Positions 35,693 to 41,343 of a stretch of DNA of 55,040 nt are shown here, in pieces; position 1 is the first letter of the stretch, and every line of letters begins with the position of its first letter. The stretch covers positions 1-55,040 of the forward strand of contig DULO01000044.1 in assembly GCA_012840345.1 (NCBI GenBank), given 5' to 3'. A model generated the notes under the pieces. It was not told where the DNA came from. It worked only from the letters and a program-made list of their open reading frames with translations, and searched no databases. The translations under genes were made by a program, and so were the position numbers. Source of the DNA: Candidatus Fermentithermobacillaceae bacterium (GTDB lineage: Bacteria; Bacillota; Sulfobacillia; Fermentithermobacillales; Fermentithermobacillaceae).

Positions 35693-36649
35693 CTAGTACA
35701 AGAAGCAAGACACCCAGTGCCCCGGTTCCACCTCTTTGAGTTCGGGGTCTTCGTGTTTGCACCGCTCCATCGCCTGTGGGCAACGTCCGGCGAAACGGCA
35801 GCCGGGGAGCGGGTTGATCGGGCTAGGGACTTCCCCGGGCAGAGTCAGCCTCGTGCGTCCCTTTTCAATGTCCGGATCGGGGATCGGGTTGGCCGACATC
35901 AACGCTTTGGTGTACGGGTTTAGGGGATGCTTGTAAATCTCCTCTGAACCCGCGATCTCCACCATCTTCCCGACGTACATTACCCCCACCCTGTGAGATA
36001 TGTGCCTCACCATGGAAAGGTCGTGGGCGATGAAAATGAAGCTCAGACCTCTTTCTTCTTGGAGGCGGGTCAAGAGGTTTACTATCTGCGCCTGGATGGA
36101 GACGTCCAGGGACGAAATGGGTTCGTCGGCGATGATGAACTCAGGGTCCACGGCCAGCGCGCGCGCTATTCCGATACGCTGCCTTTGTCCGCCAGAGAAC
36201 TCGTGGGGGAACCTGCTCGCGTGTTCCGGGCTAAGGCCCACGATGCTAAGCAAGTGGTTGATCCTCTCGGCGCGTTCCTTGCCGGTGGCCAAGCGGTGGA
36301 CGTCCAGGGGTTCCCCGATGATCTCGCTCACAGTCATCCTCGGGTCCAAAGAGGCGTACGGGTCCTGAAAGATCATCTGAAGCTTTCGTCTAAACCAGAG
36401 AAGCTCCGATTCCTTGGCGCTGGTGATGTCCTTTCCATCGAAAATGATAGAGCCCGAAGTCGGAGTGTAGAGCCTCGCGATAGTCCTGCCTACCGTGGTC
36501 TTCCCGCATCCCGACTCTCCGACTATCCCCAGGACTTCGCCTTTTCCCACGGTGAACGAGACGTCGTCAACGGCTTTCAGCGTCCTGCGCCTGTCCAGCC
36601 GGAAGTACTTCTTGAGGTTTTTGACCTCCAAAGCCAGCTCAGCGCTCAA
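35693..36649 (-). CDS. oppF: Oligopeptide/dipeptide ABC transporter ATPase OppF
   Basis: A 318-aa ATPase with Walker [18 protein letters not shown], signature FSGGQRQRIGIARAL, Walker B FIIADEPISSLDVS, and the C-terminal OppF/DppF extension with the cysteine-containing segment LPGCRFAGRCPQAMERC that binds an iron-sulfur cluster in relatives. TTG 36649 follows AAGGGGGGCG and overlaps the oppD end by 11 bases. It is the last gene of the opp operon. Confidence 0.92.
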   Translation of the reverse strand: MSAELALEVKNLKKYFRLDRRRTLKAVDDVSFTVGKGEVLGIVGESGCGKTTVGRTIARLYTPTSGSIIFDGKDITSAKESELLWFRRKLQMIFQDPYASLDPRMTVSEIIGEPLDVHRLATGKERAERINHLLSIVGLSPEHASRFPHEFSGGQRQRIGIARALAVDPEFIIADEPISSLDVSIQAQIVNLLTRLQEERGLSFIFIAHDLSMVRHISHRVGVMYVGKMVEIAGSEEIYKHPLNPYTKALMSANPIPDPDIEKGRTRLTLPGEVPSPINPLPGCRFAGRCPQAMERCKHEDPELKEVEPGHWVSCFLY

Positions 36650-37709
36650 TCGCCACGCCCCCCTTCTCAAGTTCCATGGCTGCCCTGGGGTTTGACTCAT
36701 GGTACAGCCAGCACGAAACTTGGTGTTCCTTCTCCAGCTCCATAGGGAACGCGTCGGCCTCCAAACACACCTTCATGGCCCTGGGGCATCTCGGCGCGAA
36801 AGCGCACCCTTTTGGCGGCACGAAAAGGTCGGGAGGAGTCCCGGGTATTGAGGCCAGGGCTGTCCGGGTCTTGCGGTCCAGCCTCGGCACCGACCTTAGA
36901 AGGGCGTGAGTGTACGGGTGCAAAGGCCTGTAGAAGATTTGGGAAGAAGTCCCCTGCTCGACCACCTTGCCCGCGTACATGACCACTATCTCGTTTGCCA
37001 ACCTGGCTACGACCCCGAGATTGTGGGTGATGATGATAATGGTCATGCCGAGCCTCTCCTGCAGCTCCAACAAGAGGTCCAGTATCTGAGACTGGATGGT
37101 TACGTCCAGTGAGGTTGTCGGCTCGTCGGCAATGAGGAGGTCGGGTTCGCAAGCCAAAGCCATGGCTATCATGGCCCGTTGCCTCATGCCGCCCGAATAC
37201 TGGTGAGGATACTGCAGTGCCCTTACCTTGGGATTGGGTATCTCAACCATCTCAAGCATCTTTACGGCCTTTTCCCACGCCGTCGCCTTGTCGACGCGCT
37301 GGTGCTTCACTATGGCCTCGACGATCTGGCTGCCCACGTTCATTGTGGGGTTTAGGCCGGTCATTGGGTCTTGGAATATCATGCCTATCTCCTTGCCCCG
37401 TACCGACTGCATTTCCTTTTCGGAAAGGGCAAGGATGTCTTTGCCTTTGAAGATAATCCTGCCGCCCTTGATCCGGCCGGGAGGAGTGGGGATCAACCGC
37501 ATGACGGATTGAACCGTTACGGTCTTGCCGCACCCCGACTCGCCGACCACCGCCAGGGAACTGCCCTTCTTCACCGAGTAGGACACGCCCCGGACCGCGT
37601 GGACTTCCCCCGCATAGGTGTAAAAGGAGACTTGGAGGTCTTCTATGGAGAGAAGCGGCGCCTCACCAGAGGACGGCGCAAAGGCTTTTCCTTCAATCGC
37701 TGTTTCCAC
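36639..37709 (-). CDS. oppD: Oligopeptide/dipeptide ABC transporter ATPase OppD
   Basis: A 356-aa ATPase: Walker [18 protein letters not shown], signature [16 protein letters not shown], Walker [15 protein letters not shown], and the C-terminal [15 protein letters not shown] cysteine cluster. GTG 37709 has AAGGAGGG upstream. Partner of OppF; genes overlap. Confidence 0.93.
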
Positions 37710-37722
37710 AAGATTTCCCTCC

Positions 37723-38646
37723 TTATTGCCTCAACCGGGGGTCAAGGGCGTCTCTCAGACCGTCCCCAACAAAGTTGAAGGACAGAATGAGCAAGCTAAT
37801 GGCCACTGCCGGGATTATCATGTTGTGAGGATAGACCAAGAGCACCTGGTAACCTTCGTTGGCGAGGGTCCCGAGGCTGGCTAAGGGCATAGGAACGCCC
37901 AAGCCGATGAAGCTTAGGAACGCTTCCCCAAATATCGCGTTTGGGATGGACATTGTGAGGCTGACTAAGACGACTCCCATGGTGTTTGGTATGAGGTGCC
38001 TTAGGATGATCTTTCTGGGGCTGGCTCCCACGGATTTGGCGGCCAAGACGTACTCCATCTCTTTTAGCTGCAGGATCTGACCTCTTACCAGCCTTGCCAT
38101 GCCGACCCATCCGGTTATGCTCATGGCTACGATGATGGTACCGAGTCCCGGTTCCATTACCACCAGGAGAAGGATGACTACCAGAAGGTAGGGGATACCC
38201 ATCAGGATGTCAGCTATGCGCATCATGATGTCATCCACGAGGCCTCCAAAGTAACCTGAGACGCCTCCCCATATGACGCCGATAATAAGGTCCAAAGCGG
38301 CGGCGGTGATGCCGATGAAGATCGAGATCCGTGTACCCATCCAGAGCCTAGTGAACATGTCGCGGCCCATGTAGTCGGTACCGAGCCAGTGGCGGGCGCT
38401 GGGCAACTCGTTTGCGTGCCCGAAGTCGATTTCGCGGTAATCCCATTTGCTTATCATGGGCCCCACGATCGCCGCCACCGTCAGGATAGCGAGGACCGTA
38501 AAACCTATAATAGCAAGCCTGTTCTTTCGGAACCTCGTCCAGACGTCCTTCCAGTAACCTATCGGCGGGCGCGTTATGGCGTCTCCTGTAAGGGAGCCCG
38601 TCGCAAGTGGCGCGAAGTCCTCTGGTTTAGGGACATACCTGATCAT
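37723..38646 (-). CDS. oppC: Oligopeptide/dipeptide ABC transporter permease OppC
   Basis: A 307-aa inner-membrane permease with the N-terminal OppC-type segment WTRFRKNRLAIIGFTVLAIL, GTDYMGRDMFTRLWMGTRIS and the EAA-type coupling motif ARLVRGQILQLKEMEYVLAAK. ATG 38646 follows GGGAGGGCGG; only 3 bases separate it from the oppB stop. Confidence 0.94.
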   Translation of the reverse strand: MIRYVPKPEDFAPLATGSLTGDAITRPPIGYWKDVWTRFRKNRLAIIGFTVLAILTVAAIVGPMISKWDYREIDFGHANELPSARHWLGTDYMGRDMFTRLWMGTRISIFIGITAAALDLIIGVIWGGVSGYFGGLVDDIMMRIADILMGIPYLLVVILLLVVMEPGLGTIIVAMSITGWVGMARLVRGQILQLKEMEYVLAAKSVGASPRKIILRHLIPNTMGVVLVSLTMSIPNAIFGEAFLSFIGLGVPMPLASLGTLANEGYQVLLVYPHNMIIPAVAISLLILSFNFVGDGLRDALDPRLRQ

Positions 38647-38649
38647 CGT

Positions 38650-39579
38650 TTAATCCGCCCTCCCTTTGGCCAGCCGGATCCTGGGGTCGATGAACCCGTA
38701 AGCGACGTCCACCAGGAACGTCATGAGGAGGAGAATGGCGGAATAGAACACGGTTGTGCCCATAATCAGCGGATAGTCTCTATTGTAAATGCTGTCGACG
38801 AAATAACGGCCCAACCCCGGTATCCCGAACATCCTCTCGACGACCAGCGTGCCGGTGGTGATTCCCGCGATGAGGGGGCCGAGAATCGTGACGACCGGCA
38901 AGATGGCGTTCCTGATGCAGTGACGCCACGTAATCTGGGTGGGTGTGAGACCTTTGGCTTTGGCGGTCCTGACATAGTCTTGGTTTATTACCTCAAGCAT
39001 GCTCGATCTCATCATCCTGGCCATGGTGGCGAGGGTGGTGAGGCCCAGAGCGAACGCGGGGAGGATATGATGGGCGGGGCTTTCCCACCGGGCAATGGGC
39101 AGAAGCTTGAGCTTAGCCCCCAGGACGTACTGCAGCACCGAAGCAACAACGAAGTTGGGCACCGACACTCCCAAGATAGCAATTATGATGGCGATATAGT
39201 CCAGTGTCTTGCCCCGGTATAAGGACGCGATAACTCCCAGCGCGAGCCCCGTGGTCACCGCGAAGGCCAAAGCCTCCGTTCCCAACACCAAAGAGACAGG
39301 GAAACGCGACGCGATTATTCCGTTCACGCTGCGTCCCCGTTCCCGAATTGAGATGCCCAGGTCGCCCCGGAGTAGGTTCTTTAGAAGAGTCACGTATTGC
39401 TGCCACAGGGGCTTATCCAATCCGTACTTCTGCTCAAGTTGCTTTCTGACCAGTGGAGTCATTTTCGCCGTAGTGAACGGGCTTCCGGGGACCGCGTTCA
39501 TTAGAATGAAACAAGCGGTAACGATGACCCACATGGATACCAACATGAATACGAACCGCTTAAGGATGTAGCGCCCCAT
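38650..39579 (-). CDS. oppB: Oligopeptide/dipeptide ABC transporter permease OppB
   Basis: A 309-aa permease beginning GRYILKRFVFMLVSMWVIV, with LDKPLWQQYVTLLKNLLRGDLG and the coupling segment RSSMLEVINQDYVRTAKAKG, followed by IPGLGRYFVDSIYNRDYPLI. ATG 39579 has GGGGGAG 10 bases upstream. It comes after the rearranged binding-protein gene, with a stem-loop between them. Confidence 0.94.
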   Translation of the reverse strand: MGRYILKRFVFMLVSMWVIVTACFILMNAVPGSPFTTAKMTPLVRKQLEQKYGLDKPLWQQYVTLLKNLLRGDLGISIRERGRSVNGIIASRFPVSLVLGTEALAFAVTTGLALGVIASLYRGKTLDYIAIIIAILGVSVPNFVVASVLQYVLGAKLKLLPIARWESPAHHILPAFALGLTTLATMARMMRSSMLEVINQDYVRTAKAKGLTPTQITWRHCIRNAILPVVTILGPLIAGITTGTLVVERMFGIPGLGRYFVDSIYNRDYPLIMGTTVFYSAILLLMTFLVDVAYGFIDPRIRLAKGRAD

Positions 39580-39604: not shown

Positions 39605-39637
39605 GAGACGAGGAGCCGCAGGCGGGCTCCTCGTCTC
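39605..39637 (-). other. Strong stem-loop between oppA and oppB
   Basis: GAGACGAGGAGCC and GGCTCCTCGTCTC form a perfect 13-base-pair stem with a 7-base loop. No T tract follows on the minus strand, so it looks like an mRNA-stabilising or partial-attenuation hairpin, the kind often found after binding-protein genes to raise their expression over the permease genes. Confidence 0.7.
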
Positions 39638-39682: not shown

Positions 39683-41029
39683 CTATTGCGGCGTTGCGTA
39701 GCCGAGTTCTTCAAGGGCTTCCTTAAGGAGCTGTTTCGCCTTTTCAGGATTGCCGGTAGGAGGCAGGTAGTCCTTGCCTACGTACTTCTCTGCGAAGACC
39801 TCGTCAGGCGTGGCTCCGTGAATGCTCGGAGGCGTCAAGCTGGTCGCCGGGGCCGAGAAGTTCCGGAGCACGTTGTCGCAATAGGCCTTCCTGTCAAGAG
39901 CTTCGGACAGGGCCAGACGGAACTTGGCGTTCTGCATGACCGGGTCCTCAAGGTTGCATTCCAGATACCAGGCGACCGCGTCCGCCATCTGGTGGAACTC
40001 GTCGGGACGTTCGGCCTGGAACTTGGGTATGAAGTCGCCCGGGACTCCGATGGCGTCGAGTTCGTTGGCCTCGTACATGCTGATGGGAGTGTTGATGTCC
40101 TTGATCATGTCGAACTTGATCTCGGTGATCTTCACGTTGTCAGCATCCCAGTAGTTGGGGTTCTTGACGAGAACCATTTTGGAGTCGTGCTGCCACTCCT
40201 TAATGATGAAGGGGCCGCAGTACAGCATCTTGTTAGCTTCAGTCGCGTACTCTTCGCCCCACTTCTCGTGGGCAGCCTTGTTGAGCGGCATGAAAGTCGC
40301 GAAAGAGGTCAGGTTGATAAACACGTTGTTGGGCGCGATGAGGTTGACCTCGAGGGTCTTGTCGTCTAGGGCTTTTACTCCCATGGCGTCCATAGCGGCG
40401 TTAAGGTCGGAGATGGCCTTGTCATACCCGGCCGGGTCGGAGTCCTTGTCGGGGATAACGATGTTGGCTACGTCCTCAGCGCCGACAATGCCGAACAGCA
40501 TATAGTTGTACTGAGAAGCGGTCCGCGGGTCGACTGCCTTCTTCCAGGCGTACTCAAAATCGTGAGCGGTGAGCGGAGTACCGTCAGACCACTTGAGGCC
40601 GTCTTTCAACTTGAAAGTGTAGGTCTTGCCGTCTTCAGAGATGGTCCAGCTTTCGGCCAGCCCTGAACCCATCTTGAAGTCGCCGTCGGGGCCGAGACGG
40701 GCCATTCCTTCGAGGACGGCGTTTAGGATGTCAAACGACACCTGGTCGGTGCTGGTGATGGACTGAAGATCGGGGGGCTCTTCTCCAAGGTTCAGAGACA
40801 GCTTGTTGTCTCCGCCCGGCCGTCCCTCGGTCCAAGCGTACTTCCAATCGTTCTGAGCGCCAATGGCGGATCTGACGATGCCCTTCACCCAGGTGTGCTC
40901 GGCGTAGTTCCTCTGAGGCCAATAGACCGGGATGATGGGGGATTCATCGAGAAGGATCTTCTCAGCCTGACCCATCAATTCCATTCGCCGTACCGGGTCT
41001 TCCTCAGCCCTGGCTTGGGCTATGAGGAA
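39683..41029 (-). pseudogene. oppA: Rearranged (circularly permuted and truncated) oligopeptide-binding protein gene
   Basis: The open frame reads, from its 5' end, the C-terminal portion of an OppA-type protein (LIAQARAEEDPVRR, AEKILLDESPIIPVYW, VKGIVRSAIGAQNDWKYAW), then near 40822 switches in frame to the start of a mature OppA (GGDNKLSLNLGEEPPDLQSI, LEGMARLGPDG, GLAESWTISEDGKTYTFKL), and ends at NPEKAKQLLKEALEELGYATPQ. Signal peptide, lipobox and roughly 90 residues of the C-terminal lobe are missing, and the two outer ends would be neighbours in a normal OppA. ATG 40984 is the first start but has no ribosome site. As written it could not be exported. It is either a rearranged remnant or an assembly error over tandem oppA copies. 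Confidence 0.75.
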
Positions 41030-41044
41030 AGAAGGTGGATCCCT

Positions 41045-41343
41045 TCAAGAATTTATCACTGCATATGGCCAGAATTGTCACTTCCTACGAGCGAAAGTTT
41101 GTCTGTACCTTGGGAAGCGGGAGCGGGCTCAGTCATATTTTGGTATTTGCTGTGACAAGGCATTTTTCTGGAAGAGGCCGAGACGCCTTGAGATCCGCGC
41201 CAGTTTGTGTGCCCGGCCGTCGAGTCCAATTGAGAACTCTTGACTGGGATCGCTAAGGATACTTATAGTCTTTTGTGAAGAAACTTATGTGGGTTTTGTA
41301 AGGTATTGAATCTGTTGCCGCAAAATACATGGGAGGTGATGTC
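41045..41343. other. Gap between rearranged oppA and hspR
   Basis: About 300 bases without a gene. The left part (to about 41200) is more AT-rich than its surroundings and matches nothing I know; it begins where the oppA resemblance stops, so it marks a breakpoint. The right part contains the hspR promoter. No inverted terminal repeats of an insertion sequence are visible. Confidence 0.5.
41240..41269 (+). promoter_or_regulatory. Sigma-A promoter of hspR-dnaK-grpE
   Basis: TTGACT (41240-41245), 18-base spacer, TATAGT (41264-41269). The sequence around the -35 box (TTGAGAACTCTTGA) is a small inverted repeat reminiscent of half of an HspR HAIR element (CTTGAGT-N7-ACTCAAG) but is not a full match. 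Autoregulation by HspR is expected from the family. Confidence 0.6.

Follow-up and report, generated by a model that had tools for sequence, protein, structure and literature searches.

We find that one gene in the stretch of DNA analysed here (the window; 55,040 nucleotides from a Candidatus Fermentithermobacillaceae bacterium) is very likely one of a family of oligopeptide-binding proteins with a natural circular permutation; the copy in the window is truncated at its 5' end. On the minus strand, positions 41044 to 39683 form one open frame of 453 codons in which the old C-terminus of OppA comes first, followed by a short linker, the mature N-terminus and a stop inside the C-lobe (Table 1). 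Residues 7-75 of the frame correspond to the C-terminal end of OppA and residues 83-453 to its mature N-terminus and middle. When both ends of the frame are searched against OppA proteins, residues 78-446 align with residues 18-359 of Bacillus subtilis OppA (PDB 8are) and residues 7-62 with residues 460-515, placing both parts in reversed order relative to 8are. The stop codon (TAG at 39683) lies directly past the C-lobe helix '...KQLLKEALEELGYATPQ'. These alignments and the relatives described below bear out three claims of an initial annotation of this DNA: that the C-terminal segment stands in frame ahead of the mature N-terminal segment, that the two are joined in frame near 40822, and that the frame ends inside the C-terminal lobe.

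Table 1. Features of the permuted oppA gene and the opp operon in the window.
Feature	Coordinates	Strand	Comment
oppA, circularly permuted, 5'-truncated in the window copy	39683..41026	-	within the 453-codon open frame 41044-39683
Ancestral OppA C-terminal segment, now foremost	40820..41026	-	residues 7-75; ends ...DWKYAWTEGR
Linker, old C-terminus to old N-terminus (PGGDN..)	40799..40819	-	TEGRPGGD conserved in the main permuted clade
Ancestral mature N-terminal and middle OppA segment	39686..40798	-	residues 83-453; new C-terminus after the helix preceding a C-lobe strand
DNA unrelated to oppA, 46% GC, single copy	41027..41328	.	truncation site (deletion or misassembly); occupies the place of the oppA 5' end of relatives and of a divergent chemoreceptor gene of the sister genome
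Inverted repeat between oppA and oppB, perfect, 13 bp	39605..39637	-	seen in sequence
oppB, permease	38650..39579	-	
oppC, permease	37723..38646	-	
oppD, ATPase	36639..37709	-	
oppF, ATPase	35693..36700	-	

The permutation is conserved in the order Fermentithermobacillales. With the whole permuted frame as query, we obtained single continuous matches (query 7-452; 61-74% identity) in ten other genomes of the order, from the window's own family and its sister family. Because each of these genomes matches straight across the junction in one alignment, the sequence comparison confirms that the permuted OppA read in the window is real and excludes chance. The open frames of the relatives are longer than that of the window (576-621 codons, stop to stop) and supply the parts missing there: a start codon preceded by a good ribosome-binding site, the signal peptide of a lipoprotein, whose cysteine is residue 23, and some 93 C-lobe residues. 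Intact permuted proteins in the order have 569-573 amino acids, a lipobox at residue 23, and a gene that comes first in an oppBCDF operon. Permuted oppA is present in 11 of the 17 species of the order (12 genes, all 12 permuted), and only the window copy is truncated. An order-wide search found no oppA of the permuted type in the other six species (genus g2, G004 and G016), and one genome (G014) has two permuted paralogues on separate contigs (L169:1945-3684 and L045). In other species of the class, a profile of the junction region matches only in two parts that separate at the junction, the pattern expected if their proteins keep the canonical order.

The initial annotation had offered a natural permutation, a remnant of two tandem oppA genes, or an assembly collapse as the source of the join at 40822. 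The same junction and linker recur across many independent assemblies, among them the closed Candidatus Fermentithermobacillus carboniphilus Bu02 chromosome (CP062796.1) and two single-contig genomes (G345/G737 and G528/G912, each drawn twice under different handles), which identifies the junction as a natural permutation; most of the genomes used are metagenome-assembled. Tandem oppA genes do exist (for example, L235), a general fact only, and we consider it next to impossible that the junction is a collapse of two such genes or another assembly artefact, a candidate that its conservation rules out. The annotation therefore stands in part, for the permutation at 40822, and fails for the collapse and for a tandem remnant in the window's genome; tandem duplication followed by trimming is nevertheless plausible as the ancient origin of the arrangement. 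In the portion of PMC10215811 available to us, the Bu02 chromosome is described without remark on its permuted oppA.

Close pairs of permuted genes have dN/dS values of 0.018-0.089, the lowest coming from a pair with saturated synonymous sites. These low values point to strong purifying selection, and the genes are thus presumably functional. By score, the permuted proteins are members of PF00496 (SBP_bac_5): the window frame reaches 248 bits and the full-length relative L037 294 bits, against a gathering cut-off of 32.4. They depart from the family in segment order, matching as two reversed stretches where canonical members are co-linear. The full-length proteins L037-L045 contain the complete domain with both segments homologous and exchanged, as in a natural permutant; the window copy is this domain minus 93 residues, and has neither export signal nor lipobox.

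We next consider the 5' end of the window copy, where homology to the relatives begins at 41026. By comparison with L037, the missing front amounts to 115 codons (22 of signal peptide and 93 of mature protein), in agreement with the roughly 90 missing residues estimated initially. The description of the protein as leaderless is right for the window copy only and fails for the relatives, which have the signal peptide and the 93 residues ahead of the frame. AT-rich, unrelated DNA had been noted beyond 41029, and we find this as well, with the boundary at 41026/41027: the segment 41027-41328 has 46% GC against about 57%, and no match in the sister genome or elsewhere in the window's genome. It is not repeated in the genome, so that there is no repeat at the truncation point, and a search of it for remnants of oppA or of a chemoreceptor gene gave chance-level matches only.

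Intact oppA genes, full-length, permuted and with a signal, are found in related genomes, and the copy in L037 lies beside dnaK-hspR like that of the window. The order in L037 is grpE-dnaK-hspR, a chemoreceptor gene, and then oppA, divergent from the chemoreceptor. These neighbours recur in the window in mirrored order, except that the chemoreceptor gene, the intergenic promoter and the first 115 oppA codons are missing; an ortholog of the L037 chemoreceptor was not found in the window's genome (best match 28% identity). A chemoreceptor gene divergently adjoins permuted oppA in two related genomes (L037:3516-5432 and L043:3302-5158, both on the minus strand), and a chemotaxis link to the peptide-binding protein is possible.

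The loss at about 41026 is an event separate from the permutation and local to the window, either a deletion or a misassembly. Distance ratios of the window relative to L037 are 1.04-1.21 for oppA and 0.89-1.33 for the other opp genes, with no clear sign of relaxed selection or acceleration of oppA compared with oppBCDF. Since oppA has diverged about as much as oppBCDF, the loss is either recent or an assembly error. We give an even chance to an assembly error, in which case the contig was misjoined at about 41026 and the genome itself would have a complete permuted oppA, signal peptide included, and perhaps a divergent chemoreceptor gene. The intact frame, its rate of change, similar to that of the other opp genes, the full length of oppA in relatives and the draft state of the genome (136 contigs) all fit this explanation, and an exported lipoprotein without its leader would be hard to retain. 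However, the missing 345 bp of the oppA 5' end are found nowhere else in the window's assembly, 41027-41328 is not a repeat, and the flanking hspR-dnaK-grpE is the neighbour expected from L037. A real and recent deletion that took out the first 115 oppA codons together with the divergent promoter and the chemoreceptor gene, leaving a dying oppA, has in our judgement somewhat under an even chance. The hspR-dnaK order preserved beside opp and the absence of a chemoreceptor ortholog are consistent with such a deletion, but the remaining 453 codons are without decay, and losing the binding protein would be costly for an intact oppBCDF operon unless another one substitutes. In the window's genome there is no close second intact oppA of the permuted kind, the best among the matches that cover most of a lobe being 37% identical. 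Without signal peptide and 93 residues, the window copy is not exportable as assembled, and in that form it is probably non-functional.

As the initial annotation held, the opp operon is otherwise complete, with oppB, oppC, oppD and oppF all downstream of oppA. The binding-protein gene lies directly upstream of two permease and two ATPase genes in the window and in L037, L043, L044, L047, L171, L172 and L174, and the permuted protein should feed OppBCDF in a presumed peptide transport. The inverted repeat in the oppA-oppB gap may restrict read-through from oppA into the permease genes, and is of a type that may set expression of the binding protein above that of the permeases.

To locate the cut and the join, we compared permuted and canonical proteins. 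Canonical sisters run ...KAKELLAKGMQELGIDKLPKIKFVGGDSD... through the cut site, whereas permuted proteins finish at ...AQKLLKESLKQLGYALPKQK and, in the order, start with LPPIKFLSGDSE... after the lipobox and a further 5-9 residues. Because canonical sisters read through at the point where permuted proteins end and begin, we place the cut in the short loop that connects a helix of the C-lobe with the strand after it (8are residues 359-368). The canonical tails of L030 (...WKWAYTQGRPNS; 'AYTQGRPNS') and L033 (...FKWAYTEGRGQ; 'AYTEGRGQ') recur as the first half of the linker in permuted proteins, ...WKFAYTEGRPGGDDPQHLNLNLGEEPP, and the fusion therefore kept the old tail minus its stop codon. An origin in which the gene was duplicated, the copies were fused in frame and both outer ends were trimmed is plausible from these sequences, although we found no intermediate.

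The permutation extends beyond the order. Among 399 genomes sampled evenly from the phylum Bacillota, nine further genomes have the same permutation; they fall in three other families and include the two single-contig genomes mentioned above, and the operons inspected are again oppA-BCDF. The linker TEGRPGGD or TQGRPGGD is common to L159-L166. L159-L165 have a plain signal sequence that ends in A-A-K-P without a lipobox cysteine, which suggests that their binding protein is unanchored or anchored otherwise. In one of these nine genomes (L167; G528/G912), an in-frame stop codon interrupts the gene. Three proteins (L047, L185 and L186) share the cut of the main clade and have a lipobox but a different linker; in L187, of the same type as L047, an assembly gap at the junction interrupts the gene. 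There is also a second type of permuted OppA-like protein, in which the cut precedes the 'ERVRKALSLAIDR' helix and the sequence ends '...YFYVFNLKE' (L192:1507-3138 on the minus strand, L215, L216/L237:5350-7068, L234, L235 and L236). Its cut, before the DERVRKALSLAIDR helix, lies about 90 residues earlier. The L192 type is kept in two relatives (G1027 and G1028; L215 and L216) that are 78% and 59% identical, one of them on a 3.1 Mb contig. Proteins of G1098 (five paralogues) and G1087 are cut at the same site with 29-32% identity, and some copies of this type are tandem, as in L235.

We turned the permuted proteins back to canonical order before aligning them for a tree. The main permuted clade forms one branch (support 96/91), adjacent to canonical proteins from the same class as the window; the L047 clade falls at another place in the tree (100/98). 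L192 clusters with a canonical protein at a large distance from the other permuted proteins. In this tree the L047 clade (L047, L185 and L186) is a second origin, the same cut having been made independently. It is very unlikely that all OppA proteins with this cut stem from one permutation event, with the intervening canonical proteins having regained the old order or being misplaced. The cutting of the same loop in both clades would be accounted for by one event, but the AU test rejects a single origin (p = 0.0003), the clades unite in 0% of bootstrap trees, and the linkers differ (IEDGDS or EGRKD versus TEGRPGGD); the L192 group, with its earlier cut, is separate in any case. We think it likely that Bacillota OppA has been permuted at least three times independently, always by opening a C-lobe loop and shifting the export signal and anchor to that site, and that tethering by the opposite lobe is a recurrent, selected alternative for Opp systems.

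Structure prediction points to an OppA-type fold with two lobes. AlphaFold2 models have a mean pLDDT of 94.0 and pTM of 0.88 for mature permuted L037, and a pLDDT of 94.6 and pTM of 0.90 for L047, from alignments of little depth (45-54 rows) to which canonical homologues contributed as fragments. The best Foldseek matches of L037 are DppE and OppA of B. subtilis (TM 0.54-0.55 by query length, about 390 sequential columns), as expected of a sequential aligner that sees only the unpermuted stretch of a permuted fold. We propose that, ancestrally, a short linker came to connect the old C-terminus in frame with the old mature N-terminus, that new termini opened in the loop between the C-lobe helix and the next strand, and that a signal sequence (of lipoprotein type in the order) was placed ahead of the new N-terminus. 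Going by the models, the product would adopt the usual two-lobed clamp that binds peptides, and OppBCDF would be fed by a clamp whose membrane anchor hangs from the C-lobe, not the N-lobe.

Circular permutation seldom occurs in nature. The permuted OppA proteins have close canonical sisters, a linker whose derivation from the old tail can still be read, and two or more independent origins at one loop; they allow one to test directly by what route permutations arise, and also whether a lipid anchor on the other lobe changes delivery to the transporter. Because family profiles match permuted OppA in two pieces, annotations of truncated or oddly ordered OppA proteins may hide more of them. OppA is a 'cluster C' protein, and no solved structure in the permuted order is present among PDB sequences. 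Our literature search, thin on subscription journals, found no permuted protein of the OppA class, and on permuted topology only TpMglB-2 of Treponema pallidum plus engineered or unrelated cases.

TpMglB-2 (Tp0684; 'Type Ic / Cluster Bc') is a natural circularly permuted substrate-binding protein that keeps ligand binding despite the permutation (PMC4990184), and it is the sole natural precedent that we found among substrate-binding proteins, from another structural class. Like permuted OppA, it is a lipidated substrate-binding protein of an ABC transporter and is conserved among relatives. However, it binds glucose with a Type I/cluster B fold, where permuted OppA is of the peptide-binding class; the best structural matches of the latter are all of OppA/DppE type, which sets it outside Cluster Bc. 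The permutation of TpMglB-2 lies within the N-lobe and adds a fourth hinge crossing, whereas OppA is cut in the C-lobe, and the permuted parts of TpMglB-2 are hardly alignable by sequence (13% identity), whereas the OppA segments align with canonical sisters at 40-53% identity. Permuted halves of the Thermotoga maritima ribose-binding protein, as described in the portion of PMC9815098 available to us, are likewise permuted substrate-binding parts that fold, but they are laboratory-made half proteins of a sugar-binding class. Also close are the canonical Bacillota OppA/DppE proteins (PF00496; PDB 8are and 8azb), which have the same segments, predicted fold and oppBCDF operon, and mostly a lipoprotein signal; they run from 1-359 to 368-511 (8are numbering), whereas permuted OppA has this order reversed and its anchor on the other lobe.
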